A stretch of DNA of 55,022 bases. Origin: Chrysophaeum taylorii (lineage: Eukaryota > Sar > Pelagophyceae > Pelagomonadales > Pelagomonadaceae). Location: the NCBI GenBank assembly GCA_029834535.1, contig JAQMWT010000603.1, positions 1 through 55,022 of the forward strand. The letters are read 5' to 3'. How positions within the stretch are numbered: the stretch's first letter is position 1; each line of letters starts with the position of its first letter. Positions 12,340-46,194 of the stretch are shown here, in pieces. Made by a program: the position numbers and the translations under genes. The notes beneath the pieces were generated by a model. The model was given only the letters and a program-made list of their open reading frames with translations, searched no databases and had not been told where the DNA came from.

Positions 12340-13163
12340 CGGTCGTCTGCCCACGAAAGACACCTCACCGAAGATGACGATGACGCTTCACCCCCCGAGG
12401 ATGAAATTCCTCCGGATGAAGATGAGGACTCTCCCGACGACGCCGACCTCGTCGACGCTTTCCTCACTGAAGCTCAGCTCGACCCAGACGAGGATCACCC
12501 CCTTATCCAACAACTCCACGCTTATCGCAAGAAACAACAATCCCGCCATGCGAAAAAGCCACATAAGCCACCAAATCCTCGTTCACCGTCATACTATGAC
12601 ATCAACGACAGTCCTAAGCTCAAGGCACCACCACTCACCCCTACCAAGCAAAAGCAACACCCCCTGAAGCCCAATTCCCGTGTTCCTAGTGTCACTCCTG
12701 ACAAACGACAACACCCGCACCTCCGCAAGGTCACTTCCCCCACACATACTCATCCTCCTAAGCAACACACTCCTGACCAGCGGTTCGAGGTCCCCCTTCG
12801 CGATGTCCGACGCAAGCTGCAGAACATCCGCAACCCCAGTGAAGCCGGACAGCGCTACACCAACAACCCGGACCGCATGGAACACGCACCAAAACCATAA
12901 CAACTATCTCCGACGAGATCCTCATCTCTGAGGCAGATCAAGACGCCGCCGACCTACTTCAGCTTCTCTCCGCCGATCCCTCGCCGGATGATTCAGCTGA
13001 AGGGGGCGCTATCGACGACGGTTCCATGTACGAAGACCCTGGTCAACTAGACCTCCACGATGATCTAGATCCCGAGGTCCAACCCGAAGATTCAATCGAG
13101 GACTATGTCCAACGTCACCAAGACTATATTCGTGCTCTTCACCAAAGCCAGCTTTTTCGGTAA
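12340..13163 (+). pseudogene. Acidic/basic gag-like segment of a retroelement, frameshifted
   Basis: Two successive coding segments in different frames. The first (about 12340-12900) is acidic (EDEIPPDEDEDSPDDAD), then Lys/His/Pro-rich, ending at TAA 12898-12900. The second (12906-13163) is acidic (LLSADPSPDDSAEGG) with a possible helix before TAA 13161-13163. The protease frame starts right after. By position this is the C-terminal part of gag or the gag-pol linker. No CCHC knuckle is visible. The shift between segments may be a mutation or, for the last step, programmed frameshifting. Confidence 0.45.
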
Positions 13164-13708
13164 CGGTTGCCGACGACGCCTGTGTCGCCAACCAACGCCT
13201 GATGAATCAGGCACCAAGTCTCCCGATGGACAAGTTCCCCACATCCTCGACTATTTCTTCCACAGTCGCGAGCTTTATCTCCACTGTCTTCACTCCACGT
13301 AAGTCTCACACGAAGACTCAGTCCCTACATGGATGCAATGGACCTGGCACCGAATCCTTGTTACTTGACGGAGGCGCTTCCTGTTGCTTTACCCGCACAA
13401 TGGCAAACTTTGTTCCCGACACTATACGTAGGATCTCCGAACATACTATGCGTATGGGACGCGGAACACTCACCAGAAATTTCATCGGCGTTAAGCCGTT
13501 GTATCTGCAGGCAGCAGATCTCTCATCAACTGACGCCAAAGGCTCCACTGCCTATGTACTATATCTGGTTTTCCTCGTTGTTCCAGATTTTCGAACAGGA
13601 TTGCAGGTTATAGCTACATCTCAGCTAAAGGCACTCAATGTTCAGGCAACAGACCCGCCGCTGACACACTCGCCATATCTTTATGAGCTTCTGATTCATC
13701 CCACTTGA
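13164..13708 (+). CDS. Retropepsin-like aspartic protease domain of a pol polyprotein
   Basis: The segment ESLLLDGGASCCFT has the hydrophobic-hydrophobic-D-x-G-A-S pattern of retroviral-type proteases, with the catalytic Asp at 13367-13369. A TGA at 13706-13708 stops the frame, but the same frame continues straight into the methyltransferase segment (DPHDYKSHIG and onward, then 13820). In this family the protease cuts the gag-pol polyprotein in the virus-like particle. The domain is about the usual size. The internal TGA means this copy is either broken or read through. Confidence 0.6.
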
Positions 13709-14923
13709 GATCCCCACGACTACAAATCCCATATAGGGACCACTGCTGTAGTTATCGCTCACAGGCAATCAAATGGACTCCTGTCTCTGCCATCTCATCC
13801 TGCAACTGCCTTCGACCGTGTGGTGAGCTTCCGCACTCGCCGTGACATGCCTCTTAAGGATGAACTCGAAAACATCACTCTAAAGGTCGCCAAAGCTCGC
13901 TCGCAGTTTCATTCGCTGGACTTCGCTAGGCTACAAGCTCACTCAGCCTTCTTGACAGAGTCCTACAGACTGCCCAGCCCCTACTTGGAGTATGCACTCA
14001 CTAGCAACGCGGACCTCCGCGTCTCAACGCAACCGCCTCCGCTGCGCGTCGTCATCATTGCCGGTGGACTCCACCAAGAGGGTTTCGCGTCTTTTCGCGA
14101 ACGATTCGACCAACGCATTATTGTCGTGGCCACCTGCGAAATCAACCCAATTATGCGTGCTCACGCGCAACGTCTGTTCCCAGACGCCCAGCATTTTGGA
14201 GATCTCCGGAAACTCAATGCTGATCTCCAAACCAGCAAAGTTCGCATGCCGCGATTCGACATGGCAGTATTCACTCTCCCATGCCAGCACCTTAGCGTCA
14301 TGAAAGACTATGATGGCCACTCGACTCCAGCCACCGCCGGCCTTTTCGTTCAAGAGCAAGCTCGCTTCATTCGCTGTATTCTCCCAACCTACGCTATAGT
14401 CGAGAATGCCCCACCGAACCCTAAGACCCACGAAAACACGCAGCTCGCAAAACACTACCAAAGCACGGGCTACTTCCGACACTCCCGTGTCTACAACGGC
14501 TCTTCCTTCGGCGACGCCATAAGCAAGCACCGATACTTAGCACTTTTCGCTCGGCGCCCTTTAGACGGCTACAACCTCGAGAAAAACGCCTCCCCTTGGC
14601 GCGCATCCCCTCCGAGTATGGTTCCTTTCTTGGACCCTGCCCACACCATTCCAGCAGACCTATGGGCCCCCGCCCTTCGCGGTACCGTCGCTCGTTCGAC
14701 CCTCGATTGTTATAGCCACAAAGCCCTTTTCCCGTACGAACCCGCCGAAGACGCTCAGCTCTCGATTTCCGCAAACGCTCGCTTATGTCGGATGCTCTCA
14801 CGTCTCAAGGCACCCTTTCTGGATCTCGGACTGGACGCCGCCGGCGTGGAATCCATCTCCAACCATCTGGTCTTCACCTTGCTGCGTAATCATTTGCTGT
14901 CGTTCCCCACCCTAGCTGTTTAG
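13709..14923 (+). CDS. C5-type DNA cytosine methyltransferase domain in a retroelement polyprotein
   Basis: Numbered from the Val encoded at 13820. A motif I-like strand-turn (VVIIAGGLHQEGFASF, about 77-92) is followed by an acidic residue in CEIN (E107) and FGDL (D128). Motif IV is LPCQHLSV with the catalytic Cys at 155. Motif VI is VENAPP (E195-N196). Motif VIII is SFGDAISKHRYLALFARR (about 229-246). Possible motifs IX and X lie near 287-355 (ISANARLCRML and ESISNHLVF). This order is that of C5-cytosine methyltransferases, which flip the target cytosine and attack C6 through the Pro-Cys cysteine. The glycine pattern of motif I is diverged. The domain lies in the same frame as the upstream protease and ends at TAG 14921-14923. 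The copy seems inactive as a whole element, since no integrase or reverse transcriptase follows. Confidence 0.75.
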   Translation, partial: DPHDYKSHIGTTAVVIAHRQSNGLLSLPSHPATAFDRVVSFRTRRDMPLKDELENITLKVAKARSQFHSLDFARLQAHSAFLTESYRLPSPYLEYALTSNADLRVSTQPPPLRVVIIAGGLHQEGFASFRERFDQRIIVVATCEINPIMRAHAQRLFPDAQHFGDLRKLNADLQTSKVRMPRFDMAVFTLPCQHLSVMKDYDGHSTPATAGLFVQEQARFIRCILPTYAIVENAPPNPKTHENTQLAKHYQSTGYFRHSRVYNGSSFGDAISKHRYLALFARRPLDGYNLEKNASPWRASPPSMVPFLDPAHTIPADLWAPALRGTVARSTLDCYSHKALFPYEPAEDAQLSISANARLCRMLSRLKAPFLDLGLDAAGVESISNHLVFTLLRNHLLSFPTLAV

Positions 14924-15373
14924 AACACACTTCGCTGCTATCACGTATCGGAGTCCGCGCACGCATACAAGTTGGATGACCCTCTCACAGGCACCGCTGC
15001 TGCCGCAATCGCATGCGGCTACTTTAAGCGTGCATCCATCACCATCCACTCGCAGGTCCCCCAGCTCATGGATTGCTCGCACCAGACCGCCACCTTTTCG
15101 CCGCTACACGCCTCTTCCATGTCTGTCCCCGCGGGTACCGCTTTTCCGGCCGTGGTCTTCACCACCTCCTTAGCTGCCGCACACAGCTGCTCGCGCCCCT
15201 CAACGTGGGTCCACTACATGAACCGTACGCGCCCAGGCTTTGCCGCAATCGATTCACAAGGGTGCATCACTGTCGATGACCCCACCGGGCTCATAATGTC
15301 CGAGGCACGTCCCACATACGCGGACTATGTCGGCCATGTAGGTGATACACTCCAGAAAAGCACCAAGTGCTAC
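14924..15373 (+). pseudogene. Polyprotein continuation after the methyltransferase, truncated
   Basis: The methyltransferase frame remains open after its TAG for another 450 bases, up to the inverted LTR end at 15374. It includes a Thr/Ser/His-rich stretch and a terminal GHVGD...KCY segment that could be the start of a copia-type His/Cys pre-integrase region; this is weak. The junction at 15373/15374 cuts it off. Confidence 0.4.
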
Positions 15374-16770
15374 TAGAGAACAGTAAAAATCACTGTGCCT
15401 CTGGTAGAGAACGATGGCAGTGGTAGTGCTGCCTTTCGTCCTGTCCTCTAACGACACAAAGAGCAGCACGGTGTGCGACACAGCGATTTAGTGGTTGTAG
15501 GTGTGAAGTGATGAGGTTAAGGGGGGGAAGGGGGGGGTTCCTAACCCTAAATGGAATTTTCTATCTCTACGCCCTCGCAGATTGAACTCGGGGATGAGCG
15601 AAATCTGGAACAAACAAAACAAATGTCTGGCCAAGGACAAACGGATGTCGAGTCGTGAGGAGGCGGTGAAGGAAAGTGTGCGATGTGCATGAAAGAGATA
15701 GAGGAAAACGAAATGCAGGTAATGTGTGAAGTGAGAAAGGAGAAAGAGCGGAAGATCAAAGAAAAGAAAAGGCATCGATAGTGAGTAAGAAGAAAAGTGG
15801 AGGAAGATGCTAAGTAGGCTAACGATTAAGTATGGCGAGTGTTGTGCGAGAGAGCAGATCGCCATCTTGCTCGGTGGCTAATGATATAGGGGACGGTGTG
15901 TGCCGGTGGATAAATCCGAAGTGTCTGGGGGAGCATTTGAGTAGAGCGGGGGGTCGAACGAATAATGACTGGAGGGATCATAGGTCAGGCAGTCGGGAAT
16001 TGTGCGGCAGACCAATGGTTGATCGGAAGGTGAATAATGAGAGTTGCCGTAGGGATGAGACTCTATTGTGGCTAATGGTGGGCTAGTAAAGATTTGACGA
16101 TGTGACGGAATGCTAGCGTGGTCCCACGAAGAGATATGACCATATAACCAAATCGGTTTCGACATGGTCAGGTAATCGTCAATGAGAGCGAGTAAGGCGG
16201 AGCTGTTTCAGGAAGATGAGGGAACCAGAAGTGCCTGTCACATACGTGTCAAAGCTGTCGTCCTGAGTGTAGCGTGGGACAGCTGAAGCTATGCTATGAG
16301 CGTCTAAAATGATGTGGGTGTAATCGTCGAGCGATGGTGATATCTTTATAAAGTTGTCTGGGGTTGGCCATAAATATGAAAACTCTAAATTCGTTGTAGC
16401 TTTGGGTTCGTACTCTAAATTTGCTGTAGGTTTGGGTTCGTAGTCTCGTGTAAGTAGCCAGTGGCTATCATCAAAAGATGATTGGGCGGAGACTGAGGTT
16501 TGCGAGTGTATCGCGTATGATGGTGGATACAGGCGTGTGTCCTGTGCTGACGAGTCGGTGCCCTGTGCAGAAAATGCAGAAGAGTTGGGCAACAGAAGAG
16601 AATGCCTGAAGGCGATGGACTGCTTGAAGATAGTGTCCGTGCCAGGGGGAGAGTTGACTTCGAAGGTATGGTCAAAGTCGCATCTTTCGTCTTCTATGTC
16701 GCTTACCCTGATCGCCGACTGCGGTTGCGATGGAGGACGGTGCCTCATGAATCCTGAGCCTTGCGAGGGC
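15374..16770 (-). mobile_element. Inverted 3'-end copy of retroelement A (A2), truncated
   Basis: On the minus strand this repeats the last roughly 500 bases of the giant ORF (encoded by 16772-16179, with shared strings DHTFEVNS, SIAFRH, QGTDSSAQDTRLYPPSYAIHSQTS) and then the LTR-like block to the 19-base end at 15374-15392. It lacks the hAT-like insert. Its reading frame passes the point where A1 is frameshifted, giving the sequence PRYTQDDSFDTYVTG. Homology stops at about 16770. Together with A1 it makes a large inverted repeat around the 12217-15373 protease-methyltransferase fragment. Confidence 0.75.
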
Positions 16771-28440: not shown

Positions 28441-28443
28441 GCC

Positions 28444-28837
28444 TGGAGAGATTTTACCCTCTCCGGGTACATGGTAGAGACTGCGTGCAGTCTTAGGCGT
28501 GTACAGACCATTCAGCTTGTCACATGCTACTACACAAGGTAGGGATTTGAGCCCTAGCTCCTTAAGGACATTAGGTCCCATATAATCGTTTACACTGACA
28601 ACGAGGAACGAAGCCTCTGTTAATTAAACAGAAAACCCCGTACCTGACGGTACGCACCTGGAGGCCTACTCCATGTTGGAAAAGAGCTTCAGACTAGGTT
28701 CTTCATAGTCATGAATAAGTAATTGCGGAAGGGTAAGGAAGGAACGAGGGAAAGCCGTATTACGGAGAGAAGACCCTCTTGTAGAGATAGGTGTGAAATG
28801 TTCCAGTGTCGCACACATAATAGTGTAGCTCACTGGA
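28444..28837 (-). repeat. 3' LTR of copia element 1
   Basis: About 394 bp, roughly 95% identical by eye to 42245-42640. In element sense it starts TCCAGTGAGC after a purine tract and ends TCTCTCCA. The ends are not the usual TG...CA at the 5' side, but the last two bases are CA. The flank does not show the 5-bp duplication expected with the right-hand flank (AGGCC here, AGTTT there). Confidence 0.85.
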
Positions 28838-28848
28838 CCCCCTCAGCG
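28838..28848 (-). promoter_or_regulatory. Polypurine tract of element 1
   Basis: In element sense CGCTGAGGGGG lies directly before the 3' LTR. A G-rich purine tract in this position primes plus-strand synthesis in LTR retrotransposons. Confidence 0.65.
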
Positions 28849-28954: not shown

Positions 28955-30964
28955 TTATGATGTCGAGCGTGTTGTGATGCTGCGTAAAGAAGCGGTATCG
29001 GTATCCACAACATCAGATGTGTGGTCCAATTCATCCTCGCTATTATCGTCCAGTTCCTTTAACTCTGGAGAAGACGAATTATGATCATCGGAGGATAGGT
29101 CGTTAGCAGTGTTGGTGTTGTGCGTAGTCATTGCATCACTCAAGGTGACCAAGGGTGACATAACAGACGAAAGGAAGGACATAGCAGCATCTGGTGTAAG
29201 AGCGTGTAGATCCAATGCAGGAATAACACGATCATGTGCATCAGACAAAGCTGTGTGGAGGTTATGAGCTGCTGCGTCGATTAGAACTCGCTGTGCCTCA
29301 TTATACGTATCTGGAGGGAACTGTGCAATAGACGAGATAAGCGACCGAGAAATGATATGGACAAATACAGCAGAGGTCGGGATTATGGTGTTCTGATGCA
29401 TTTGAAGACTTGACAAGATGTTATCTAACAAAGAAACATGTTTGATGTTCTCGGTCACTTGAGTATTTAGAGTTTCGTAGGTTTCTTGCATCTGTGTGAG
29501 AGAACTTAGTGCAAGCGATAGTTGATGTTCTCATGCCATCAATTGCTGCTCGGTGTTAGTGAGACGTAAGGATAAAGCCCGAATCTCTTCTTTTAATTGG
29601 TGTAAAGATTCAGCCATATTGTCGTTAGCTTTATCTGGCGTGGGCTCAGCGGGTGGATTATCGATCGGCGCTGGTGACACATCTTCAGAAGAGGTATTAT
29701 CAGAGAAGGTATCAATTATGTGGGATGGGTAGCCAACTTGGACTAACACGTTTTTAAATGCTAATTGTTGATCAGGTGGAAGTTGGCGAAAGTAGTTAAG
29801 CATTGGCGGTACCGTCTCGGAAGAAGTTGCGTCAAGTTGATGAGAAACATCGTTAACAAAGCGTTCGATGAGCACATTAAGTAACTCCTCAGGATTGGTA
29901 ACTACACAGGTTTTATCTTCAACGGACTGTAACAAAGACCAAGCTGCTACAAGGATCTCAAGATTTACACTCGAAATGAAGGGCAGCTGAAGTAAAAGCG
30001 GGGCGTGAGCGTCAGGGTTGACGAGAATTTTAGAAGCATCAACGTTAAGGGATGTTGCAATCTGCATGAGCGCCTCTTTGAGCAGCTTGTTAATAGCAAT
30101 GGACTTTCCAAGGCGGAGGATTATAGCTCTTATGTGAGCAGCTGGATCATTATAACAAGAGAGTTGGAAGGGATGCTGATTATTGCGAATTAACGCTATC
30201 CCGTGATTCGACAAGTTGCACATCACACAAATCAACAGAAAGAAAGGGCGCGGTACATCGAAGCAGTGCGATGCATGTTGCTCAGACGCGAGATGATCCT
30301 CAATAATTTGTCGTATCCTGTCAGTTTTGAGCTCATCTTCAGTGCATATGATGAGCACAAGGGGTGTACCCGGCATATCGGTTTTATTATAACATTTTGT
30401 ACACGCCACATGTACTTTGACAACCCCTTTAATGGGTGGAAAGCGGTGAAAGCGAATACCTTCATTAGGTGATATAGCGGGGGCATTCCGAATGCGCTTT
30501 GCTTTGACGCACAGCAATGAACTAAGATATTGGACGTTATCCACAAACTCTGTCTGTTGTGCTTCGGTAAGCAGCTGCTGCAAAGACTTAAGCCAACACT
30601 GAGGATCCTTATGCTGAGGGATGAGAAAATTCGGCGGGGACGAACCAAGAGCAGTGATGTTCCCTGACATCATCGCAAGTGCGTCAAACTTGCAATGTTT
30701 GAGCAGGAAATACTCAGACTTTGATGTTTGCGATTTAGACTGTTGTTGGACAGTTGCCTTGGGCGCCTTAGGCGTAACGGGTGTAGGTTGATGTCCTTGA
30801 GCCACCGACAAATATGTTTGATGCTTCCGATTAGGGGAACTAGTCGGAGCAACGCTTGGAGTTAGAGCATTAAAGGTGGGGATAGTGACGATACACCACC
30901 ACGGCCACGGTTCAGGGCAGAATGGCGCCGGCTCGCAGCATCTTTGTTTTTTAGTGGGATTCAT
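28955..30964 (-). CDS. Extra 3' ORF of element 1 (X+Y), coiled-coil protein with an in-frame TGA
   Basis: Lies between RNase H and the 3' LTR. The first ATG is at 30964 (MNPTKKQRC). The frame runs to a TGA at 29533-29531 and continues in the same frame to 28955, for about 670 codons overall. A Cys pair (VHVACTKCYNK) might bind metal. The middle is helical and Leu-rich, without obvious signal peptide or transmembrane segment. Around the TGA a coiled coil (LKEEIRALSLRLTNTEQQL, then SLALSSLTQMQETYETL) runs on in register, so the stop probably broke, or is read through in, one longer protein. The C-terminus is Ser/Asp/Glu-rich. Extra ORFs in this position of copia-type elements are sometimes called env-like, but I see no envelope features. 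Function unknown. Confidence 0.6.
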
Positions 30965-31080
30965 CTTAAAAGGAATCTCCACATCACATCTTTCATTACA
31001 TTTCACATTTTAGCGAGCCAGTACTCCTTTACATATGAGGGTTAGTTTAAAGTCATTTCGGACATATTGAAGGGTAAGGA

Positions 31081-33069
31081 TTAACCATCTTGTTTAGCTA
31101 TGGGTTGTTGTAAGCCGAGTAACGCGCGAAATCTGCTGAAGAGCGGAGCTCCAAAGGGTTTAGTAAATCCATCGGCGATATTATGGGTGCCGGAAACATG
31201 ATGTAGACGTATACGTTTTAACTGTACGTAGTCGCGAATACTGAACCAGCGTGTGCTAATAGCTTTAGCCTTAGTCGCACTGTCGGGATTATTAGATACA
31301 TGAATAGCTGAGGCAGAGTCTCCAAGTATAGGACTGTTACGTATGAACGACATGTCCGATGGGAGGGGATTGCCGTGAGCATCATAATCTAGCAGCAAGT
31401 CTTTCCCTGAAGGTTGGCGGAGATCGAAGTGAGGATTTATAGCGAATGCCATTTCCGTTAACAATTTGCGTAACCAGACCACATCATCGGCACACATATT
31501 AAGGGCGATAAGTTCACTCTCATGCGTAGAAGTAGCCGTAATAGGCTGCAACTTAGACTTCCAAGTGATGAGAGAACCAAACAAAAAGATAGCGTAACCG
31601 GCTGTAGACTTGCGGTATTGTTCATAAGAGGGTGCATTGTCGGCATCAACGAACGCGACCAATGGATCAAAATTACCTGAATTAACTTGTTCTTTAGTGT
31701 AATCCAACATGGTGGCCATGTCAGTACGATTACCGATAAGAAGTCGAAGATGGTCCATTAGAGCGGAAGAGCCAGAGTAGTACCAGAGGCGAAGATTGCG
31801 ATTTTCGGGCTTGCGCAAGTAGCGGAGCGTTCCTGTTAGTACTTGAACATGTAGAAATGCTGGATTATGCATTCCTCGAGAGCAACAACTACGACTTTGT
31901 GGTAGATCGGGGCGACAGGCCCATTGGACAAACGTGAGCTTGCCGAGTAGAGTGGAGAAGGTATGAAGGATGAACTTGTCCATATCAGAAGATGGCTCTC
32001 CAGTTTTATACGTGGCTGATGGTGACATCGGTGTGGAGGTGGGACGTAACTGCATTAAAATGGGGTACTCTTCGAACAATGCATCAAGTTTAGCCTGACA
32101 GTCCAGTGATATAGAACCATCAGTTGTACGCGTTATGCGCATGCCTAAGAGAGTATGGACTTCCTCGAAGGTGTCGACTGAGTATTCCTTTTTTAGGGCT
32201 TGCTGGAATTCACGACGTAGAGTTTCCGAAGTACAAGTAATGACGACGTCGTCTACTGAGAGCGTGCAAATTATAAATGTGGCGTCAGCTTGGACTTTAG
32301 CGTAAATGCAGGTGTCTGTTCGAAATCGTGTATAGCCTAATGAATCAAAGAAGCCGTTTATGGTTTGATTCCAATGGGCAGGGCTCTGACGTAATCCATA
32401 GAGAGATTTAAGTAGCTTTGGGAGACGACGGCCTTGATATTTAGTATCGTCGGGATCGAGAAGGCAAATGCCTTGTGGCAGTTTGACATAGACATGAGAT
32501 TCGATGGGAGCTTGAACAAAAGCGTTAGGTACGTCGACATGGTAGACGGGAAGTCGCAGATGAGCTGCTAGCGCCAGAACGCAACGGATGCCAGTAAGCT
32601 GTGCCATAGGGCTGAATGTGTTGAAAAAATCGGTGCCCAAAGAGGCTAAGAAGCCTCGTAGGACCAAGCGTGCTTTATGCTTAATGTACTGACCAGCAGC
32701 GTTGGTTTTTATACGTAGGACGAGGCGGGTGTCAATGGGCTTTGAGTTGACCATTGGCAGTGCTAGTTTAAAACAGCCGAACTTAACAATATCAAAAATC
32801 TCCTTGGAGATGGCAGCAACATAAGCTTTGCGATCAGCGCCTGAGAGACCTTTGAGGCAGCTCAACTCATATTCATCAATTTTGATATCTTTGGCTTGAA
32901 TCTTGTATTCGTCCGAACCAACCGTGCTGGGGTCATGAGTCGTCGTAAGATGAGTAATTGCGTAAGCAGCGACATTATCGTGAGTGTGAGCGTGTTCGGG
33001 ATCTTCGACGAGTTGAACAAGTAGTAGAGGAGCATCACCAAGGTGGGCCTCAATGTAATGCGATTGCAC
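31081..33069 (-). CDS. Reverse transcriptase / RNase H of Ty1/copia element 1
   Basis: A 662-codon frame. The reverse transcriptase N-terminal part is KHKARLVLRGF. The first catalytic Asp is in YHVDVPNAFVQAP (D179). KSLYGLRQSPAHWN is a copia signature, and LSVDDVVI is the catalytic YVDD-type box (D273-D274, Ser replacing Tyr). RNase H follows with FVDADNAP (D475), STHESEL (E517), LGDSASAIH (D584) and HNIADGFTKP (D633). All catalytic acids are kept. The enzyme copies genomic RNA into cDNA inside the particle. The start codon is not defined because the region belongs to a pol polyprotein. The frame is intact although the integrase part is broken. Confidence 0.92.
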   Translation of the reverse strand: MQSHYIEAHLGDAPLLLVQLVEDPEHAHTHDNVAAYAITHLTTTHDPSTVGSDEYKIQAKDIKIDEYELSCLKGLSGADRKAYVAAISKEIFDIVKFGCFKLALPMVNSKPIDTRLVLRIKTNAAGQYIKHKARLVLRGFLASLGTDFFNTFSPMAQLTGIRCVLALAAHLRLPVYHVDVPNAFVQAPIESHVYVKLPQGICLLDPDDTKYQGRRLPKLLKSLYGLRQSPAHWNQTINGFFDSLGYTRFRTDTCIYAKVQADATFIICTLSVDDVVITCTSETLRREFQQALKKEYSVDTFEEVHTLLGMRITRTTDGSISLDCQAKLDALFEEYPILMQLRPTSTPMSPSATYKTGEPSSDMDKFILHTFSTLLGKLTFVQWACRPDLPQSRSCCSRGMHNPAFLHVQVLTGTLRYLRKPENRNLRLWYYSGSSALMDHLRLLIGNRTDMATMLDYTKEQVNSGNFDPLVAFVDADNAPSYEQYRKSTAGYAIFLFGSLITWKSKLQPITATSTHESELIALNMCADDVVWLRKLLTEMAFAINPHFDLRQPSGKDLLLDYDAHGNPLPSDMSFIRNSPILGDSASAIHVSNNPDSATKAKAISTRWFSIRDYVQLKRIRLHHVSGTHNIADGFTKPFGAPLFSRFRALLGLQQPIAKQDG

Positions 33070-33204
33070 GGTGATAAGTCTTCGATGGCGGAGAGGTGAG
33101 GCTCGGAGGCACCATAAGAAGCGTCATTATGATCCAAAATGGAGTGGGGTGTGAACAAAGCATAAACATATTGAGCGAGAGGAACTTGAGAGGCGTGAGC
33201 ATGT

Positions 33205-33970: not shown

Positions 33971-34970
33971 AAGTGCAGGCCAGTAAGTTCACCTACTCCC
34001 AATCTCTAACCCCAGTAAGTTCACCTGGTCCCAGTAAGTTTCGTATAAGTTCACCTGGTCAGTAAGTTCACCTAGCTCACACCAACTCCTTTGAGCTCGT
34101 CGCTCTCGCCTCCGCCAATCTAAGCTGCTTTGATCCGCGCGCGCCGCCAACCTTTGAGTTTACTCTAAAAACCCTTTACTCTAAAAACCCCAGTATGCTC
34201 ACCTGGTCCCAGTTAAACCTGGTCACTCAGTTCACCTCGTCCCAATCTCAAACCCCAGTAAGTTCACCTGGTCCCAGTAAGTTAACCTATAGTGCGCGTG
34301 TAGACGCCGGGAGGGGGCTTATCGGTATTGCGCAGCACGTGTGGAGTAGGGTGGAGTCGTCGACCAAGAAGAGGATATCCTCGGGGTTGCCGATAGACAG
34401 AGAGCCACGTAGAGCTGGACGTGGCAGAAGACGGGCTTCGCCAAGAGGACGCCGACCTCGCGGGGCGTCTGGCCCTGGCTCTTGTTGATCGTTTGGCGTA
34501 GGCGGGCCTTAAGGGATACAGGTTGGAGGAGCCTCGGTGACAACGACACGATCGATCATGTATCTGGTACCGTTGCAGTGGCCGTGCGACGGGTCGAGGT
34601 TGCGAAGACTTTAAGCTCGCGATCAAAGTCAGCATGCAGTTGGTTGTCAGGGAGTTGGAAACTCGACTGTAAAGAGCGAGGCGTCGTCTTCCGACCCAAC
34701 CTAGTCGGCCGAAAAGAACTCCGACGCCTCGTCTCCGGGAAAAAAAGGCCGCGGTCATGCGCGCGGCGTTGTCAGCATCGACAACATCGTTTCGACGGGG
34801 CGTGAGAATGGCGCGCTGAAAGAGCCGCCGCGGGTCGTGGAAATAGTCTGCGAGGTCGCCGTAGACGGCTGGATCACTGTCTGGCTCTCGCGCCTATCTG
34901 ATCCTTACTCTCGCGCCTACCTGATCCTTACCCTAAATCGAGGGACAAACAGACAAACAGACAGACAAAC
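33971..34970 (-). mobile_element. Helitron-like unit H3 (first of a head-to-tail pair)
   Basis: Plus-strand left end AAGTGCAGGCC at 33971; at the right it passes through a short ACAGACAAAC tract directly into H4 at 34971. The minus strand encodes the helicase remnant (34758-34319), with RAIL-type, NLDPSHGHCNGT, TINKSQGQT and HVQLYVALC strings in shifted frames. The tandem arrangement fits rolling-circle transposition. Confidence 0.75.
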
Positions 34971-35983
34971 AAGTGCAGGCCAGTAAGTTCACCACAATCT
35001 CCAGTAAGTTCACCTGGTCCCCCCCAGTTCACCTAGTCCCAATCTCTCCCCAGTAATCTCGGCGTAAGCCCACTCCACTCTCACACCTCCCACTCTCCTT
35101 CGAGCCGTCGCTCTCACCCCCGCCAATCTAAGCTGCTTTGAGCACCGCCAACCTTTTTTACTCTAAAACCCCCCAGTAGTTCACACTTGGTCCCAGTAAG
35201 TTCACCTGGTCACTAAGTTCACCTAGTCCCAATCTCTAACCCCAGTAAGTTCACCTGGTCCCAGTAAGTTCACCTACAGTGCGCGTGTAGACGCGGGGGG
35301 CTTATCGGTATTGCGCAGCACGTGTGGGTAGGGTGGAGTCGTCGACCAGAAGAGGATATCCTCGGGGTTGCCGATCGACAGAGAGCCACGTAGAGCTGGA
35401 CGTGGCAGAAGACGGGCTTCGCCAAGAGGACGCCGACCTCGCGGGGCGTCTGGCCCTGGCTCTTGGTGATCGTTTGGCGTCGGCGGGCCTTAAGGGATAC
35501 AGGTTGGAGGAGCCTCGGTGACAACGACACGATCGATCATGTATCTGGTACCGTTGCAGTGGCCGTGCGACGGGTCGAGGTTGCGAAGACTTTAAGCTCG
35601 CGATCAAAGTCAGCATGCCGTTGGTTGTCAGGGAGTTCAAAACTCGACTGTAAAGAGCGAGGCGTCGTCTTCCGACCCAACCTAGTCGGCCGAAAAGAAC
35701 TCCGACGCCTCGTCTCCAGGGGAAAAAGGCCGCGGTCATGCGCGCGTTGTCAGCATCGACAACATCGTTTCGACGGGGCGTGAGAATGGCGCGCTGAAAG
35801 AGCCGCCGCGGGTCGTGGAAACAGTCTGCGAGGTCGCCGTAGACGGCTTGGAGGATCACTGTCTGGCTCTCGCGCCTACCTGATCCTTACTCTCGCGCCT
35901 ACCTGATCCTTACCCTAAATCGAGGGACAGACAGACAAACAAACAGACAAACAGACAAACATCTGTCGATTAGTAGTTAGGAC
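34971..35983 (-). mobile_element. Helitron-like unit H4 (second of the pair), inserted in element 1 integrase
   Basis: Plus-strand left end AAGTGCAGG at 34971, right end TAGTAGTTAGGAC at 35983. Helicase remnant on the minus strand at 35859-35302. Removing 33971-35983 joins ...HLADV to ALNPENG in one frame with no target duplication, so H3+H4 entered the integrase gene as one unit without duplicating the target. That is expected for Helitrons and not for hAT or LTR elements. Confidence 0.8.
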
Positions 35984-37140
35984 ATCGGCTAAATGATTAA
36001 CATGGGGTGTTATTAAAGGGTTTATAACATTACCACCACATAAGTAGATGTAAGGACGACATCGAGGCTCATATTTATGAAATTCGTTAGGTTCCAAATG
36101 CAGATAACAAACAGAACCAAAAGGTTTGAAGTAGTCCTGTTGGGGAACATTACATTGGTCTAACAAAACTTGTTGGGGGCTTAGAACTTTATTATAAATA
36201 CGTTCGAGGGGAACGTTGGGGATGAGATTATACGATTGGATGGCATGTATAACAGCCCACGGGTAGTGTGGTGCCGGATCTGTTAGGGGGTGACCTTTAT
36301 AGGAGACATTAAGCATATGCCGGAGTCGTGTAGACGCGGCAGTGGCTATGTGACCAACAGCGGCTTCTACTTCATGATTAAAGACATGTAAGTAAGGGGG
36401 GACCGCGGACATGTTAATACCATGTTCCACACGAAAGGGGGTTGTAACATGCTGAGATAAATAGGGTTTAAAGGAATCACACTAGATTTGTTTGAGTTGT
36501 ACATGAACATAAGTAGAACAGAAATTGCGGACAAACTCAAGGGCGTTACAAAATTCGCTGGAGTTAGTGCTACGACAAAAGTACACTAACAAAAATTTAG
36601 AAATGAGACACTTAAAAACAATGATATGTCGAAAGGATCCCCATTCCGAGAGAACAGATACGTAACCACCGTCACATGCCCAGGCTTCACCAGGTTGAAA
36701 AATTTTTCGAATGATGGTTGCTTGGTAAGGTGGTGTGGATGAGGAAAGCGTTTTTTATGAATCGTACAATCCACACAGAACTTACGGTAGGGTACGTCAG
36801 ATGGGTGGTGTCCAGGACTGGCAATAACCTGAACAGCTTTTATAGCTTGAGAATCACTAGAATGGTGGATGTTGTGAAAATTGGTAGCTCGTTGTTGCGC
36901 ATCTCGAAATGCGAGGGTGCCCCTGGCATGAACTTTCTTATCGAAGGGCGCATGCTTCTCATGGAGCTGTCTTGGCGTTATAAGAGGAATTTGTTTTTCT
37001 TTAGTAGGAGATGATATATCTGCGGATGAGGTGTTAGAGAGGAAGACATGAGCTACTGAATCGAGATGAAAAGATGGAAGTTCGTGGTTAGAAGCAAGAT
37101 TATCACAACATGAGAGTTTTTTATTGGAGATGTAGAACAT
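35984..37140 (-). pseudogene. Integrase of element 1, broken
   Basis: The zinc-binding pre-integrase region shows the H-H-C-C pattern: NFHNIHH... and FCVDCTIHKK (37140-36690). The catalytic core then continues in another frame from about 36690. EAWACDGGYVS holds the first Asp, a TAG stop at about 36486-36484 lies just before the second Asp (CDSF), and HEVEAAVGH holds the Glu (ORF 36430-35915). The C-terminal part has FGSVCYL and PYIYLCGG. So all D, D, E residues can be found, but one frameshift and one stop break the gene. Confidence 0.8.
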
Positions 37141-37220
37141 TGTAATGGAACTCTGGTGTAATATTAAGGATGTATCTGTTGGGAATATATTTGTGAAGAA
37201 GGTTGACCTATAGTTTTTGG

Positions 37221-39002
37221 TTAGAGAGCATGATCAGGGTCAAACGATGGTGATAGCGTTAATTTACGCAAGTCATAGACAAGCTGACACAAATGTTTAT
37301 AAATTACATGATATGTTCCAGCCGGAATAGCATTAGCGATTATATCACAGCATAGGTCCGGGGACAAAGACAAAAGAAAATTGATTTGGTACGCTGTGAA
37401 GTTATTGGCGCGTGCCAATTCGCGAGTTGAGTAGTGTCGAATGCGATCGAGTCGTGGATCGTACACGAGCATATTAGCAAATCCACGAATGGTAGGAGTG
37501 GGAGTGTATATGGAATGAACTTTGGCACCCATCTTCCTATCGCTTGATGTAATAAAGCCAAGGTATCTGCTTTGGGACAAATGCATGTCACTTAAAGCAA
37601 AAATTTTATCGATAAATTCAAGACGATTTTCCTGAGGGTAGAAGACAAAAGAATCGTGAAATACAGGAGAAGTATAGGGAACCAGTGCTTGTACTAGACG
37701 ACGCGTGTCTTGATTTTCATTATTATTATGGTATGCTTGGCAAAGCCAAAGAAAACCGGTAACTGGTTCGAGAGAAGCAGTCTTATCGATTCCGGCATCA
37801 TGTGTTAGGAAGGTGTAGGTTTCGCCAAAAGCATTTATATGTGCCTGGTATTTAGAAGAGGAGTTAGAAACTGTTATGTCTCCGCCTGTGTGTCTTCCAC
37901 CGGTGATGTAAATGATGGAGGAAGTAGAGGATTTATTTAAGAATAACCTGTGAGATGGTTGGTTAGATTCGATAGTTGTAATACGAAAGGACACAGGTAA
38001 TGTGATGGATTTAGGGAATAAACGTCCCATAATATTATAGAGGAGCACAAAAGCTTTGAGTTCAATAGGAGATCTCATGCAAGCAAGTGGTTTTCTTGAA
38101 TTAGTCAAGAATCCCAGGCGAAAGTTAGAAATGCCCTCCATTTCATCTTGACTGGGATGTTCGACTGTTTTGTTAGAGTGCAGACGAAGGAACAGCATGG
38201 TTAAGGTTTCAAGCTCAGTCACAGTTAAGCGCACGGATCCTGTACGACTGAAGATGTTGTAGGTTTTAGGTGTGGACACGAATGGTATGTCGGGAAAGAC
38301 CTGCGTCCAAGGTTCGTCGACTATTAACTTGCGACTGATGGAATTAGCGTGGTCTGCAATATCCAGAAAGGAAGTGACTCGTTTATTAGGCCATGAAAGC
38401 AGATCAAGAGGGCCGGTGTTATATTTGCGTGCAACGAGGATCCATCTTTCTCTGGCTTGATAATCTCCACATAGATAGCATGGAAATCGGTCACATATGT
38501 CCACCGTATAGTGCATCGTTGAGAAGATGAGATTAGCAACTCGTATATGATCTTCATACGATGCGGAGTGTGGTGGAGTCATTTCCATGAAGAGAACAAG
38601 CGGCTTTAAAAGCTCAAGTACACTTAGAGCACTTGGGAACAAAGAATCATCCATATCGCGCTCGAAGGTGGAAATGGATCTCCCATTGATTATGTTGCGA
38701 TTCGTGCATGGTGATGTCAATTCCACTTTGTCAGTGTAATTTTTTGCACGTTCGACGTCCGATGCCCGATGGAGATATGTGAGAAACTTGGGTAGGGATG
38801 GGAAAACTTCGATGGAATTACCAAAACGTCTTCGTAGCATGTGCGTGATATTGTCGTCGCTCTCAACAAGAACTTTAACGTTGATGTTGATTTGCAAGTC
38901 ATTAGAAGCGCAAGCCAAGAATGCAGGAGTGGACATCCCAGAGCAAAGTAGAGTTACAGTAGGTGTTCGTGAGCTAGGAGACGTAGTTACTGTGTGAAGC
39001 AA
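37221..39002 (-). CDS. C5-type DNA cytosine methyltransferase in copia element 1
   Basis: Frame of about 593 codons between protease and integrase. Motif I is VTLLCSGMSTPAFLACAS (about 16-33), then an acidic residue in VLVESDD (E47). Motif IV is LTSPCTNRNIING with the catalytic Cys at 99 (codon 38708-38706). Motif VI is LFMEMTPP (E140). Motif VIII is LCGDYQARERWILVARK (177-193), with the Q-x-R-x-R pattern. A long target-recognition region follows, then motif IX (STRELARANNF) and motif X (CDIIANAIPAGTYHVI) near the C-terminus. All key motifs are in the right order, so the fold should be complete. It shares its frame with the upstream protease, separated by one TGA at 39023-39021 with no ATG nearby, so expression by readthrough or as an ancestral polyprotein is likely. 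Substrate and specificity are unknown. Confidence 0.85.
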   Translation of the reverse strand: MLHTVTTSPSSRTPTVTLLCSGMSTPAFLACASNDLQININVKVLVESDDNITHMLRRRFGNSIEVFPSLPKFLTYLHRASDVERAKNYTDKVELTSPCTNRNIINGRSISTFERDMDDSLFPSALSVLELLKPLVLFMEMTPPHSASYEDHIRVANLIFSTMHYTVDICDRFPCYLCGDYQARERWILVARKYNTGPLDLLSWPNKRVTSFLDIADHANSISRKLIVDEPWTQVFPDIPFVSTPKTYNIFSRTGSVRLTVTELETLTMLFLRLHSNKTVEHPSQDEMEGISNFRLGFLTNSRKPLACMRSPIELKAFVLLYNIMGRLFPKSITLPVSFRITTIESNQPSHRLFLNKSSTSSIIYITGGRHTGGDITVSNSSSKYQAHINAFGETYTFLTHDAGIDKTASLEPVTGFLWLCQAYHNNNENQDTRRLVQALVPYTSPVFHDSFVFYPQENRLEFIDKIFALSDMHLSQSRYLGFITSSDRKMGAKVHSIYTPTPTIRGFANMLVYDPRLDRIRHYSTRELARANNFTAYQINFLLSLSPDLCCDIIANAIPAGTYHVIYKHLCQLVYDLRKLTLSPSFDPDHAL

Positions 39003-39020
39003 ACGTGTGGTAACCTTGCG

Positions 39021-39989
39021 TCATACGGGAGGTGGGAAATGCTTGCGTATGTAAGGCAGCTGCGAATGCATTGACTCCAAGATGGTTTTGAGCCATGGGA
39101 CGTAAATTACGCGTTCCATGAGGGTGGAATATAGTTTAAGCATTTCGCGTTGTTCATTAAAAGCACATAGTCTGAACTGTAGTGAGCGAAGTTCCATTTT
39201 ACGCGCTTTTGCTTGTTGTAGCGAATAAATTGGTAGAGTTGGCAACAGGTTACTGAGTCTAAACAAAGTAATCTTGACATTATCATCAATTTTACTCTGG
39301 ATAGATGATTGTCCTTTAAATTCAACTCCATAAAGATGTATACCAAGTTTATCTTCTCCCCATTGAGTCATACTGATGATGTGCAGATCGGGATCGTTAT
39401 GGTCGTTTTGCTTGGGTAGAAAAAGCGCAACGTCTAGCTTTACATATCCCACATTTGGATGCTTTGGGAGAGCGGGAATGACGGTCCTTATAATCATAGC
39501 ATGTGTGATTCTCTGCGTATCCGTAGCAGTCTGGATAGCAGGTGATAAGGACTCGGGTAGCTTTACGATGTGGATAGGATCAGCATAACGTTTAAAGTTA
39601 ATTACATGTTGAGAAGCACATGTGTCAGCATATCCTGGCGTAGTCATTAGCGGCAAATTGTACTCGTTGTACAGTTTAAGCATTGTTGCATAACAGGCAT
39701 GTGTTGAGCTTTGACCAAACACGTACTGTGTCATGAAACTTTGCGTTTGTTCGGAAGGCACAACGACGAGTGTAAAACCAGTGTTTAATTTTGGTAGCAA
39801 CACAGGGGGATCTGTGCCATCTTCATTATCTTCATTGGGTAGATTACTGGGGAGCTCAGAGTGCGAGGAAGTTTCCCGAGCTTGACGACGAACGATAGCA
39901 TTCTGAGCTTTAGCATTTATGTGCTGCAATAGCGGCTGAGGGATGTTATCGATTTCATCATCTTTAATGGACAGAAAAGTGTGGAACAT
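39021..39989 (-). CDS. Retropepsin-like protease of element 1
   Basis: GYADTCASQHVIN has the D-T/S-x-A-S pattern of copia-type proteases, with the catalytic Asp at about 39626-39624. The frame overlaps the end of gag in the -1 frame and is open upstream of its first ATG (39989), so it is probably expressed as a gag-pol fusion. The frame ends at TGA 39023-39021 and reopens in register into the methyltransferase. The domain following the active site is longer than a bare retropepsin (about 150 residues after the Asp). Confidence 0.75.
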   Translation of the reverse strand: MFHTFLSIKDDEIDNIPQPLLQHINAKAQNAIVRRQARETSSHSELPSNLPNEDNEDGTDPPVLLPKLNTGFTLVVVPSEQTQSFMTQYVFGQSSTHACYATMLKLYNEYNLPLMTTPGYADTCASQHVINFKRYADPIHIVKLPESLSPAIQTATDTQRITHAMIIRTVIPALPKHPNVGYVKLDVALFLPKQNDHNDPDLHIISMTQWGEDKLGIHLYGVEFKGQSSIQSKIDDNVKITLFRLSNLLPTLPIYSLQQAKARKMELRSLQFRLCAFNEQREMLKLYSTLMERVIYVPWLKTILESMHSQLPYIRKHFPPPV

Positions 39990-41761
39990 TTTCTCTGTAT
40001 CAGCAGTCCCCCTCTGCTCCGCATCACTGGGGACGCTTCAGGAGCAGATGTTTCAGTTTGATACTTTTCTTCTGAAACAAGAGATTCCTTATCGGCTTCT
40101 AAGAGGTTCGATATGGTATTGGACATAGTATCAACTCGAGATAAGTAGAGATGAACTTGGGTGGCTTCGTCAGGATCTAAGGACTGTGTCGAAGCTTGAG
40201 AAGCGGTTGTCCAGAGGGTACTCAATAAGCTTTTCATTTCCTCCTGTACCATTTTATAGTCGGTGGAAGGGTTGGGATTCGCTTCCTGTAATTTACCAAA
40301 CAGGTGGCGAAGACGATCAACTTGATAAGTAGCCCGGTCCATAAGAGACATATTAGAGCGTGCATTGCGGTTAGAGGAAGATGAGTAGACAGGACGATCG
40401 AAGCTGGTACCTTTGACGTTATAATTTGAGGGTGGACGATAGTACGACGTGTCACGGGGTGAAATTGTCGATGCTTTGTCTTTTGCATTACGAAGCTTAC
40501 GAGCGTTGAAGCCAGACTGTCCAGCTACAGTGGCTAACAACGAGTAAGCGTTGTTTAGAGAGTCGTGGGATTGATGAATAGTATCCATCAATAATACCTT
40601 AGGTGGCTTGGTAGCGGTAGTACCAGGGATGTAAGGGATCCAGGAAGCGGGTTTATCCAAGCGTCGGTTAGAAGAAAACTTTGTCTCATTGTATATCTTT
40701 AACAAGAATCCCAATAGCGGACGAACGTCGTTAGGATCAACTAGCTTTAACAATTCGGGATCGTGACTCGAGTTGTTACCAGAGCGTGTCTCGTAGAGTT
40801 TACACCATTCCAATAAAGATTGAGAATAGCGCTCGTGATCCGAGGGATTAGCATATAGACGGTAGATCTCCTCGTGAGCTTTAAGAGTGATTATGGAGTT
40901 ATTAAATTGGATTGATGCTTCATCATTATTTAATTGCTTTGCCTGAGATTGAAAGGCAAGGAGTTGTTCGACAAATACATGGGCATACCAATTAACATTT
41001 AAAGACATTCGATTAAACTGAGATTTAAGCTCAGTAACATCTGTACATGACACTGTCTCATAGTAATGGTAAGCTAAAAGCATTACTGCACGTAGTTTAT
41101 TAGGATGTGGAGTAATTGCATAAATCTTCTTTAATTGAGGCCACATGGCGAGTGCTGGTTTTTCTTGTGATTCCAAGTTAAAGAATGTGTACAAGAAACC
41201 AGCATAAGTTTCGCAGTGTTTGATCCAATCGGCATTAGAGAGACCTGTAAAGGATATGTTAGTTAAAGATGAATCATACACAATTGATTTAGGGAATCGG
41301 GTATCTAATAAAGTGAGGACACGTTTGACATCCTTATTTAATTCAGGACGAACAAGATTATACGACTCTTGGTAGTAAAGTCGTTCAAGATTATTACGGA
41401 CATCAACTGTTAGTTGATGGGAAGAGTTGACGTGCCAAGTCTTTAAATGTTCGGGCAGGGCATCTTCATCAGGTAAGTTTAAATCGTTAACTTGTTCAGC
41501 TTTCCATTGAGCGAAGATGATATCAACTTCTTGTTCAAGAAGTTGATTATATTCCGGAGCATTCCGGGTGTAAGCTTCATATGAATCGAAGCAGAATAAC
41601 GCGTCCACATATGGACTTGTCATATGCCTGCGAAGCACCTCAATTTGCAAGCTCACCTTGGTTGAGTTATCTTGGAAACGCAATCCTGCGTTAATCTTAT
41701 CAACGAGGATTTGTTCTTGTTTGTAGATATCCGTGGTGGATATTGGTTTTTGTTTTGACAT
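39917..41761 (-). CDS. Gag-like capsid protein of element 1
   Basis: 614 residues from ATG 41761. It is related over most of its length to the gag of element 2 (shared KVSLQI, DSYEAYTR, NLES, FNARRLRN, SNM-LLDR strings). It is predominantly helical, as expected for a capsid protein that forms the particle. I see no CCHC zinc knuckle. The C-terminus overlaps the protease frame by 73 bases, in the -1 relation. A run AGAGGGGGA in the overlap region (near 40015) is a candidate slip site but not a perfect heptamer. Confidence 0.75.
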   Translation of the reverse strand: MSKQKPISTTDIYKQEQILVDKINAGLRFQDNSTKVSLQIEVLRRHMTSPYVDALFCFDSYEAYTRNAPEYNQLLEQEVDIIFAQWKAEQVNDLNLPDEDALPEHLKTWHVNSSHQLTVDVRNNLERLYYQESYNLVRPELNKDVKRVLTLLDTRFPKSIVYDSSLTNISFTGLSNADWIKHCETYAGFLYTFFNLESQEKPALAMWPQLKKIYAITPHPNKLRAVMLLAYHYYETVSCTDVTELKSQFNRMSLNVNWYAHVFVEQLLAFQSQAKQLNNDEASIQFNNSIITLKAHEEIYRLYANPSDHERYSQSLLEWCKLYETRSGNNSSHDPELLKLVDPNDVRPLLGFLLKIYNETKFSSNRRLDKPASWIPYIPGTTATKPPKVLLMDTIHQSHDSLNNAYSLLATVAGQSGFNARKLRNAKDKASTISPRDTSYYRPPSNYNVKGTSFDRPVYSSSSNRNARSNMSLMDRATYQVDRLRHLFGKLQEANPNPSTDYKMVQEEMKSLLSTLWTTASQASTQSLDPDEATQVHLYLSRVDTMSNTISNLLEADKESLVSEEKYQTETSAPEASPVMRSRGGLLIQRKCSTLFCPLKMMKSITSLSRYCST

Positions 41762-42230
41762 GATTGTGACCTATTAAGAGATAGGTTATAGGATTGATAG
41801 ACATATTCAACACATAAGAATGAGGGGTTTCTCAAGTGCGGGTTCTATGTACAGTACGCTATTTTAAACGTGGGCTTATTGACAAGACCAAACAAATCAA
41901 CATGCTATTTAAAACAGGGTGACTTGAGACTGAAGAATGGATTAGTTCTCGAGCAGTCAGTCTTTTGTTGGGGAATGGAAGGAAAAACCCGTACAAGTTT
42001 CCGCGGCTTGTATAGGAAAATTTTAATTTTATTGGTTATGCGAGTGCATGTGACCAGTGACCGACCCAACTCGGTCACAAACCAAATTAACTGGTGGGCA
42101 CATACCGTCACACAACAAATATGTACAGTAGACCACCGCCAAACACATTGTCGCATTGTACTCGTGATCAGGCGTAAATTGATCACTCCATTTAGACGTA
42201 CAACACAGTTGGGCTGACACACCTACGCAT
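41762..42230 (-). promoter_or_regulatory. 5' leader of element 1
   Basis: About 470 bases between the primer site and the gag ATG. No ORF is supported. Packaging signals would be expected here but cannot be recognised from sequence alone. Confidence 0.6.
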
Positions 42231-42244
42231 CTGGGCCCATAACC
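42231..42244 (-). promoter_or_regulatory. Half-tRNA(iMet) primer-binding site of element 1
   Basis: In element sense GGTTATGGGCCCAG follows the 5' LTR directly. It is complementary to the anticodon stem-loop of initiator tRNA-Met (CUGGGCCCAUAACC, anticodon CAU). This is the known half-tRNA priming mode of Drosophila copia. Confidence 0.8.
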
Positions 42245-42640
42245 TGGAGAGATTTGACCCTCTCCGGGTACATGGTAGAGACTGCGTGCAGTCTTAGGCG
42301 TGTACAGACCATTCCGCTTGTCACATGCTACTACACAAGGTAGGGATTTAAGCCCTAACTCCTTAAGGACATTAGGTCCCATAGAAGCGTTTACACTGAC
42401 AACGAGGAACGAAGTCTCTGTTAATTAAACAGAAAACCCCGTACCTGACGGTACGCACCTGGAGGCCTACTCCATGTTGGAAAAGAGCTTCAGATTGGGT
42501 TCTTCATAATCTGAGATAAAAGGGCGGAAGGGTAAGGAAGGAAGGAGAGAGGGAAAGCCGTATTACGGAGAGAAAACCCTCGTGTAGAGATAGGTGTGAA
42601 ATGTCCCAGTGTCGCACACATAATAGTGTAGCTCTCTGGA
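42245..42640 (-). repeat. 5' LTR of copia element 1
   Basis: About 396 bp, matching the 3' LTR at 28444-28837. In element sense it runs from TCCAGAGAGC to TCTCTCCA, with an imperfect terminal inverted repeat (TCCAGAGAG against TGGAGAGAG). About 20 differences by eye argue against a very recent insertion. It interrupts the gag of element 2. Confidence 0.85.
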
Positions 42641-46110: not shown

Positions 46111-46194
46111 ACGAGCCGAGCGGAACCTATTCGTCAGCGCGTCATCTCTTAGCGAGCGTGAGGACAGAAGACGGGGCACAAGCTGCAACATCGT

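Follow-up and report, generated by a model that had tools for sequence, protein, structure and literature searches.

A probable C5 cytosine methyltransferase domain between the protease and integrase of Ty1/copia retrotransposons in the alga Chrysophaeum taylorii

Introduction

Cytosine methylation is a main weapon of hosts against retrotransposons, and a retrotransposon that seems to encode a cytosine methyltransferase (MTase) of its own raises the question of what such an element does with the enzyme. A case of this kind appears in the alga Chrysophaeum taylorii, whose genome, as examined here, comprises 70.8 Mb in 697 contigs. The window, by which we mean the whole stretch of 55,022 nucleotides that was analyzed (contig JAQMWT010000603.1, C603 in our numbering), had been read in an initial annotation as containing a complete C5 MTase between the protease and the integrase of a Ty1/copia element. 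We ask whether this reading holds, whether the enzyme belongs to pol, and what role it might have.

DNA methyltransferases (DNMTs) in retrotransposons have precedents, as the initial annotation had noted: the accessible text of PMC5890265 describes them in LINE and DIRS elements of Symbiodinium and in Gypsy elements of Klebsormidium, reports that SymbioDIRS enzymes methylate CG in yeast and that CpG depletion was seen for SymbioLINE only, and presents the Copia elements of Symbiodinium as being without any DNMT domain. A paper of 2025, in the part accessible, speaks of “DNMT3 in LTR Copia and DIRS” in streptophytes and dinoflagellates and cites PMC5890265, published in 2018 (PMC12344493); “LTR Copia” may be a slip for Gypsy, as the cited source describes Gypsy. 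In searches of an open-licence library, we found no further report of a DNMT in a Copia element.

Results

Structure of the element

A single LTR retrotransposon lies, in its entirety, on the minus strand of the window (Table 1). The stretches resembling a primer-binding site and a polypurine tract stand at the expected places beside the LTRs, as judged by look, and the former may resemble the initiator-tRNA-Met site of Drosophila copia. By eye, the sequences outside the two LTRs of the window copy, which is an old one, show no matching short repeat that would mark a target-site duplication.

The Ty1/copia order of protease, integrase, and reverse transcriptase is present, with RVT_2 downstream of the integrase and the protease recognized by eye. 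An integrase follows the MTase and is broken, both as initially annotated; a nested insertion (~33972-35981) is among the causes, and copies L033 and L038 are uninterrupted at its site, with a 3-bp overlap. The SH3_retrovirus match of the integrase piece at 35915-36481 reaches 24.7 bits, under the cut-off of 27, and the HHCC and DDE residues of the integrase were recognized by eye in L038, a copy in which a single open frame of 1464 codons runs through the MTase and the integrase into the beginning of the RVT_2 region.

Several features of the window were recorded in their own right. The nested insertion has CAGTAAGTTCACCTGGTCCC-type repeats, with related translations near 26-28 kb (by eye). 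Positions 3324-10388 of the plus strand hold a stop-free frame of 2354 codons on a C-rich strand, without Pfam match, part of whose C-terminal sequence is repeated at 16179-16901 on the minus strand (by eye). Also on the minus strand are a second gag-like region at 42504-44425, beside the 5' LTR and related by eye to the gag of the element, which is perhaps another, truncated element; a short frame at 45710-46126 with DLYCAAGGATLGF, resembling DNMT motif I, whose matches to PF00145 (10.7 bits, E 0.35) and Methyltransf_15 (E 0.013) are both under cut-off; and another RVT_2 reverse transcriptase fragment at 48572-49744 (E 4.5e-5, under cut-off).

Table 1. Coordinates of the methyltransferase-bearing element and of a related decayed copy in the window
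Feature	Position	Strand	Basis or remark
5' LTR	42243..42640	-	94% identity with 28442-28837 (401 columns)
Putative primer-binding site, TTATGGGCCCAGATGCG	42226..42242	-	Directly after 5' LTR; read from sequence
gag-like ORF, 617 codons	39917..41770	-	Named by position; without Pfam match
Protease-containing ORF	39021..40037	-	DTCASQ by eye; without Pfam match; terminal TGA 39021-39023
In-frame TGA followed by C, between protease and MTase	39021..39023	-	In 29 of 31 readable distinct family A copies
C5 cytosine methyltransferase-like domain, 599 codons	37224..39020	-	Stop-free frame 37221-39020; motifs and profile comparison
Motif I, TLLCSGMSTPAF region, residues 20-36	38913..38963	-	By eye and hhalign
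Motif IV, TSPCTN, Cys105 codon	38706..38708	-	C in 32 of 32 copies
Motif VI, FMEMTPP, Glu146 codon	38583..38585	-	E in 31 of 32 copies, stop in one
Motif VIII, YQARERWILVAR, residues 187-198	38427..38462	-	hhalign and copy comparison
Middle region between motifs VIII and IX, ~320 residues	37446..38402	-	DNMT profile has ~150 columns there
Motif IX, RIRHYSTRELARANNF, residues 526-541	37398..37445	-	hhalign
Motif X, IANAIPAG, residues 561-568	37317..37340	-	hhalign and copy comparison
Integrase pieces, broken frames	35915..37233	-	Piece 35915-36481 matches SH3_retrovirus, E 2.3e-5
Nested insertion in integrase region	33972..35981		~980-bp unit twice in tandem, about 2 kb in total
Copia reverse transcriptase and following region	31081..33123	-	RVT_2 E 3.6e-42
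Extra ORF, 492 codons, between reverse transcriptase and 3' LTR	29531..31009	-	Without Pfam match
Polypurine stretch GAGGGGG	28838..28844	-	Adjoins 3' LTR; read from sequence
3' LTR	28442..28837	-	Partner of the 94% identical LTR pair
Decayed family B copy: protease, then MTase	13064..15376	+	PF00145 E 1.8e-7 in 13709-14923

The methyltransferase frame and its motifs

The MTase frame has stayed open despite the broken integrase, and the 593 codons initially assigned to it are the same 599-codon frame begun 6 codons later, which makes the former Cys99 and Glu140 the present Cys105 and Glu146. Compared with the canonical forms of the C5-MTase motifs, the domain of the family to which this element belongs (family A) has motifs I, IV (PC), VI (E), VIII (QxRxR), IX, and X in the correct sequence, an order that had been read from the window before and that is borne out both by eye and by collinear hhalign segments. 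The usual form of motif I is DxFxGxGG; as read by eye, motif VIII is GDYQARERWILVARK and motif IX is RHYSTRELARANNF.

The region between motifs VIII and IX is enlarged and has no Pfam match. Patterns of the HxD and GGD type, seen by eye, prompted us to consider a 2OG oxygenase (TET/JBP- or PKHD-like) there, a candidate rejected upon Pfam searches and profile comparison, both of which were unsupportive: against 2OG oxygenases, the middle region scores 14.3 and 16.2, the shuffle means being 14.4 and 13.1 and the maxima 22.5 and 20.6 (PKHD-type reference, n=7). Tet_JBP and 2OG-FeII_Oxy_6 had no match in the genome, in a search whose controls likewise matched nowhere. Single-sequence AF2 models gave a pLDDT of 34.0 for the family A domain and of 32.5 for the family B piece in the window, both too low for the models to be of use.

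Three Copia families with the domain

The genome contains three Copia families with such a domain, whose merged loci are somewhat inflated in number by what are likely alternate contig versions (e.g., C10 and C297, with near-identical match coordinates), as follows.

(i) Family A, that of the window element, has at least 73 merged loci. Intact copies, which the initial annotation had proposed to look for, are frequent among them, with 32 of the 73 matching without a stop over at least 594 of the 599 residues.

(ii) Family B has at least 70 merged loci. Searched with PF00145, the genome gave a list of 57 places scoring over cut-off, and of the 13 retrieved (L041, L042, and 11 others), those 11 represent, by their translations, this one Copia family. 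Pfam, run within the family on L043 and L044 only, identifies DNA_methylase at E 2.6e-8 (34.1 bits, against a cut-off of 22), and family B keeps PCQ and ENV. A protease lies upstream of the MTase where frames extend that far, and in L044 a single stretch of 1335 codons places PF00145 (349-476) ahead of rve (1016-1110; E 0.0042, under cut-off). The gag (3-908) and pol (830-4000) of copy L043 overlap in different registers, which suggests that this family uses frameshifting where family A has a TGA (see below). A decayed member in the window, with internal stops, shows 65% identity with L044 across 411 columns; together with the enlargement between motifs VIII and IX and the TGA in most copies, this MTase-bearing copy at 13064-15376 on the plus strand is an addition to what was initially annotated.

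(iii) Family C, found from the stretch upstream of an abundant Copia reverse transcriptase type, has at least 129 merged loci, counted via its C-terminal half. Across 219 residues, this half shows 44% identity with the domain of the window element (E 1e-64), and the N-terminal piece contains CSGLSTPAF, TPPCTN, and AEMTPP. The copy is frameshifted, with the motif X region ahead of an HHCC stretch (by eye).

The MTase occupies the same position in families A and B and apparently in family C as well. Of the best 150 of 1670 RVT_2 candidates, 73 are preceded on their own strand, within 8 kb, by an MTase of family A, B, or C; the other 77 of these 150 have none upstream among the MTases scored, which we count against the interpretation preferred below. 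Two of the retrieved places are host genes: L042 (on C621) is a DNMT5-like gene with SNF2, and L041 (on C634) is a DNMT2-like gene, overlapped on the opposite strand by a light-harvesting protein frame. The genome has 84 matches to light-harvesting proteins, some of them pieces of one gene. Along with the DNMT2-like and DNMT5-like genes, these are signs of a photosynthetic eukaryote and, with the size of the genome, suggest a stramenopile like the pelagophytes.

In a tree of 209 columns with very long branches, families A and C together join family B with a support of 0.958, apart from the host DNMT2. This grouping suits one acquisition, with the reservation that the branches are so long and that DNMT1, 3, 4, and 6 are absent from the reference set.

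Homology to C5 methyltransferases

The motifs might have been selected by eye from an unrelated open frame, and the Pfam and PDB searches leave room for such a chance likeness. The initial annotation had proposed a search with the Pfam DNA_methylase profile and had named the lack of a significant match as a refutation of the enzyme; such a match is indeed lacking, as Pfam returns no family at E ≤ 1 for the whole family A domain and, for its pieces at E ≤ 10, no DNA_methylase and only YecM, by chance. A PDB sequence search with family A likewise gave chance matches and no methyltransferase, and no relatives of family A were found among viral contigs, genome contigs, or phages.

Other comparisons point to the MTases. 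In PHROGs, the whole family A domain matches phrog_116, “DNA methyltransferase,” at E 0.0044 as the sole family listed (two pieces of the domain, searched separately, match no family). For profile comparison by hhalign, we used a DNMT reference profile of 15 sequences, consisting of E. coli Dcm, 12 phage DNMTs, and the DNMT2-like and DNMT5-like genes of this genome, and containing no DNMT1, 3, 4, or 6 sequence. Seven family A copies align to these 15 DNMTs at a probability of 56.7% (E 1.1e-4) and to the 15 DNMTs plus nine family B copies at 87.9% (E 3.2e-6); with the pieces of family C added to A, the joint reference is matched at 92.7% (local) and 96.9% (global), and single family A sequences reach 35.9-79.1%. 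The alignment forms two collinear segments, residues 20-206, which yield the 87.9% (E 3.2e-6), and residues 525-589 (motifs IX and X), which by themselves are weak (12.6%, E 0.0023). It pairs motif I, SPC, MEM, QARER, STRELAR, and IANAIPA, in order, with their DNMT counterparts, the probability for motifs I to VIII ranging from 36 to 93% with the rows used.

The probability never exceeded 4.1% when the columns of A were shuffled (n=120) or 0.8% when those of A and C were shuffled and compared with the joint reference (n=107), and all seven control ORFs (gag, protease, integrase, reverse transcriptase, ORF3, gag2, and a large ORF) stayed at or below 0.7%. Two further results count against the homology: with the 15 DNMTs as reference and family B left out, adding the C pieces to A lowers the probability to 46.9%, and A and C against B alone reach 3.2%, which is at shuffle level (shuffle maximum of 4.0%, itself a doubtful figure).

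Family B itself is readily placed, at 98.2% against the 15 DNMTs, at E 8.3e-12 to phrog_116, and at E 0.12 to a cytosine methyltransferase in the PDB sequence search; it has no relatives among viral contigs and matches 17 phage records, of which those annotated at the matching place are labeled as DNA or cytosine methyltransferases or methylases. Direct comparison of A with B, by BLASTP or hhalign, is not significant. Because family B passes Pfam alone, and because A and B have no direct match, a joint reference that includes B is not circular.

We overrule the Pfam miss because of the profile-profile result, the PHROGs match, and the sister families, and regard the family A domain as almost certainly a C5-MTase homologue. 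An unrelated frame, which the lack of Pfam and PDB matches would favor, is barely credible in view of the shuffles, the control ORFs, the PHROG match, families B and C, and the purifying selection described next. The initial placement of a C5 MTase between a Copia protease and integrase is thus upheld by motifs, profile comparison, and sister families alike.

Conservation and selection

At 32 family A loci, the Cys of motif IV, a Gly of motif I, both Arg residues of motif VIII, the Arg and Glu of motif IX, and the Asn and Pro of motif X are present without exception, and the Pro of motif IV, the Glu of motif VI, and the Gln of motif VIII are each present at 31. Pooled, uncorrected pN/pS ratios, a check on selection that had been advised at the outset, are 0.098 for motifs I to VIII, 0.159 for the middle region, and 0.113 for motifs IX and X, compared with 0.076 for the protease, 0.042 for the integrase, and 0.115 for the reverse transcriptase. 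These values, 0.10-0.16 for the MTase, are based on 28, 27, and 31 of the 32 rows for its three parts and on 7 of 11, 7 of 11, and 5 of 11 rows for protease, integrase, and reverse transcriptase, leaving out duplicates and any row that has a stop or matches over a short length only.

The ratios show purifying selection on the domain. Its constraint is about that of the reverse transcriptase and weaker than that of protease and integrase, and we count this weaker constraint against the interpretation preferred below. The pS of the most distant copies is 0.64-0.72; a value so close to saturation means that selection on the domain is of long standing. Together with the frame that it shares with the integrase and RVT_2 region in L038, this selection argues, in agreement with the initial annotation, that the MTase is very probably a functional part of pol, and an intact, selected MTase in many copies suggests that the element needs the enzyme for its own life cycle.

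A conserved TGA between protease and methyltransferase

The MTase had been described as in register with the protease, and the two do share a register; an in-frame TGA at 39021-39023, which the initial annotation did not mention, separates them. Among the 31 distinct family A copies readable at this point, a set that leaves out L021, 29 have this TGA, a single copy has TAA instead, and another lacks a stop altogether; the TGA is present even in a family A copy with 76% protein identity. A C directly after TGA makes termination leaky. Because the host DNMT2-like gene ends in TGA, this triplet is not a general sense codon here, and its conservation suggests that readthrough joins protease and MTase. 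An RNA structure 3' of the TGA that might aid readthrough was looked for in the window copy and dismissed (z 0.59).

Discussion

The analysis shows the motifs, their position, the conservation of catalytic residues, purifying selection, and three families with many copies. Taking the whole chain of claims together, with more weight on homology and on membership of pol than on the substrate, we consider it moderately probable that a Ty1/copia lineage in a photosynthetic alga carries a C5 MTase as a lasting Pol domain between protease and integrase and that the enzyme acts on the element's own DNA. The closest known system is KnitGypsy-Dnmt3 of Klebsormidium nitens, which, in the accessible text of PMC5890265, is alike in having a DNMT in the Pol polyprotein of an LTR element, in multiple copies, under purifying selection; it differs in being a Gypsy element with a DNMT3-type enzyme, found in a PF00145 survey, whereas family A is Copia, escapes Pfam, and has its motifs VIII and IX ~320 residues apart. 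SymbioDIRS-Dnmt3 and SymbioLINE-Dnmt, from the same source, resemble the present case in that hundreds of element-borne DNMTs with catalytic residues kept occur in one algal genome, but they belong to DIRS and LINE elements rather than Copia. What is shared with the elements of that paper, so far as its accessible text describes them, is a DNMT in the coding frame of the element, multiple copies, and purifying selection. Sola1-1_Ec32 of Ectocarpus, as described in the accessible part of PMC12477816, is likewise a transposon of a stramenopile alga with a DNA methyltransferase, but of another class, namely, a DNA transposon with a ParB-like and an N4/N6 methyltransferase. The phage DNA methyltransferases of phrog_116, the best PHROG match of both A and B, stand outside any Pol. 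Novelty seems to lie in the Copia element, in the divergent enzyme with its enlarged and unassigned region, in the number of copies, and in the alga as host.

As the most likely role of the MTase we infer that it methylates the DNA of its own element, inside the particle or during integration, ahead of any decision by the host on what becomes of that DNA. The initial annotation had likewise proposed element cDNA or target DNA as possible substrates. Under such a scheme, Gag-protease would be made first, and occasional readthrough of the conserved TGA would give Gag-protease-MTase-integrase-reverse transcriptase; the protease would release the MTase within the particle, where it could methylate the element DNA after reverse transcription, or it could act on DNA at the integration complex. 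A copy methylated in advance might resemble resident DNA or might fall at once under host DNMT5-type methylation, and such pre-methylation would limit damage and favor coexistence. That the MTase acts on the element's own DNA is, in our estimate, slightly short of an even chance.

CpG content bears on this proposal and on its alternatives. The observed/expected CpG ratio is 0.89-0.96 in seven stretches from family A; two parts of the window copy have ratios of 0.99 and 1.08, and six stretches from family B have 1.01-1.04. In three other regions of the window, which also differ in GC, it is 1.13-1.32. CpG depletion in the A and B stretches relative to these three regions is not clear and is weak at best, with GC as a confounder. 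The result speaks against heavy, lasting CG methylation followed by deamination and is compatible with non-CG methylation or efficient repair.

The absence of a clear depletion would equally suit an enzyme that methylates RNA, the element's own or its tRNA primer, in a DNMT2-like use of the DNMT fold. The apparent likeness of the primer-binding site to an initiator-tRNA site would fit as well, and RNA methylation has been raised for SymbioLINE-Dnmt in the accessible text of PMC5890265. This explanation is unlikely nonetheless, given that families A and C group with B rather than with the host DNMT2 (in the tree of 209 columns and very long branches) and that a position beside integrase and reverse transcriptase suits a DNA substrate equally. 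A further suggestion, one of the options offered in the accessible part of the same paper, is that the MTase helps to silence new copies, thereby sparing the host and with it the element lineage; purifying selection in the presence of many copies accords with such restraint, but the lack of clear CpG depletion does not, and we hold it to be quite unlikely.

It may also be asked whether the enzyme is active at all or is an MTase fold that is dead, or merely binds DNA, and is retained in Pol for a structural or targeting function. Motif I is indeed far from the usual form, and a large region without assignment sits where target recognition would be expected, but the Cys of motif IV and both Arg residues of motif VIII in 32 of 32 copies, the Glu of motif VI in 31 of 32, and the PCQ and ENV kept by family B make such a fold decidedly improbable. 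Methylation of the element's own DNA remains the reading that we prefer.

A bolder extension, which we put forward tentatively and think rather doubtful, is that the MTase is an old core module of a whole Copia clade and not late cargo: families A, B, and C would all carry the module with an enlarged target-recognition region, family A would dose it by TGA readthrough, and the particle would normally both make and methylate its own DNA.

An LTR element would here retain an MTase under selection even though methylation is a weapon of the host, and MTase-bearing and apparently MTase-free Copia elements may coexist in one genome. Counts of DNMT genes based on Pfam can overlook element-borne enzymes of this kind. 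If the finding is borne out, Copia joins the classes of elements that have acquired DNMTs, in an algal host outside both the dinoflagellates and the charophytes, and with so many copies in a genome of 71 Mb, the question of what retrotransposons gain from methylating DNA becomes testable.
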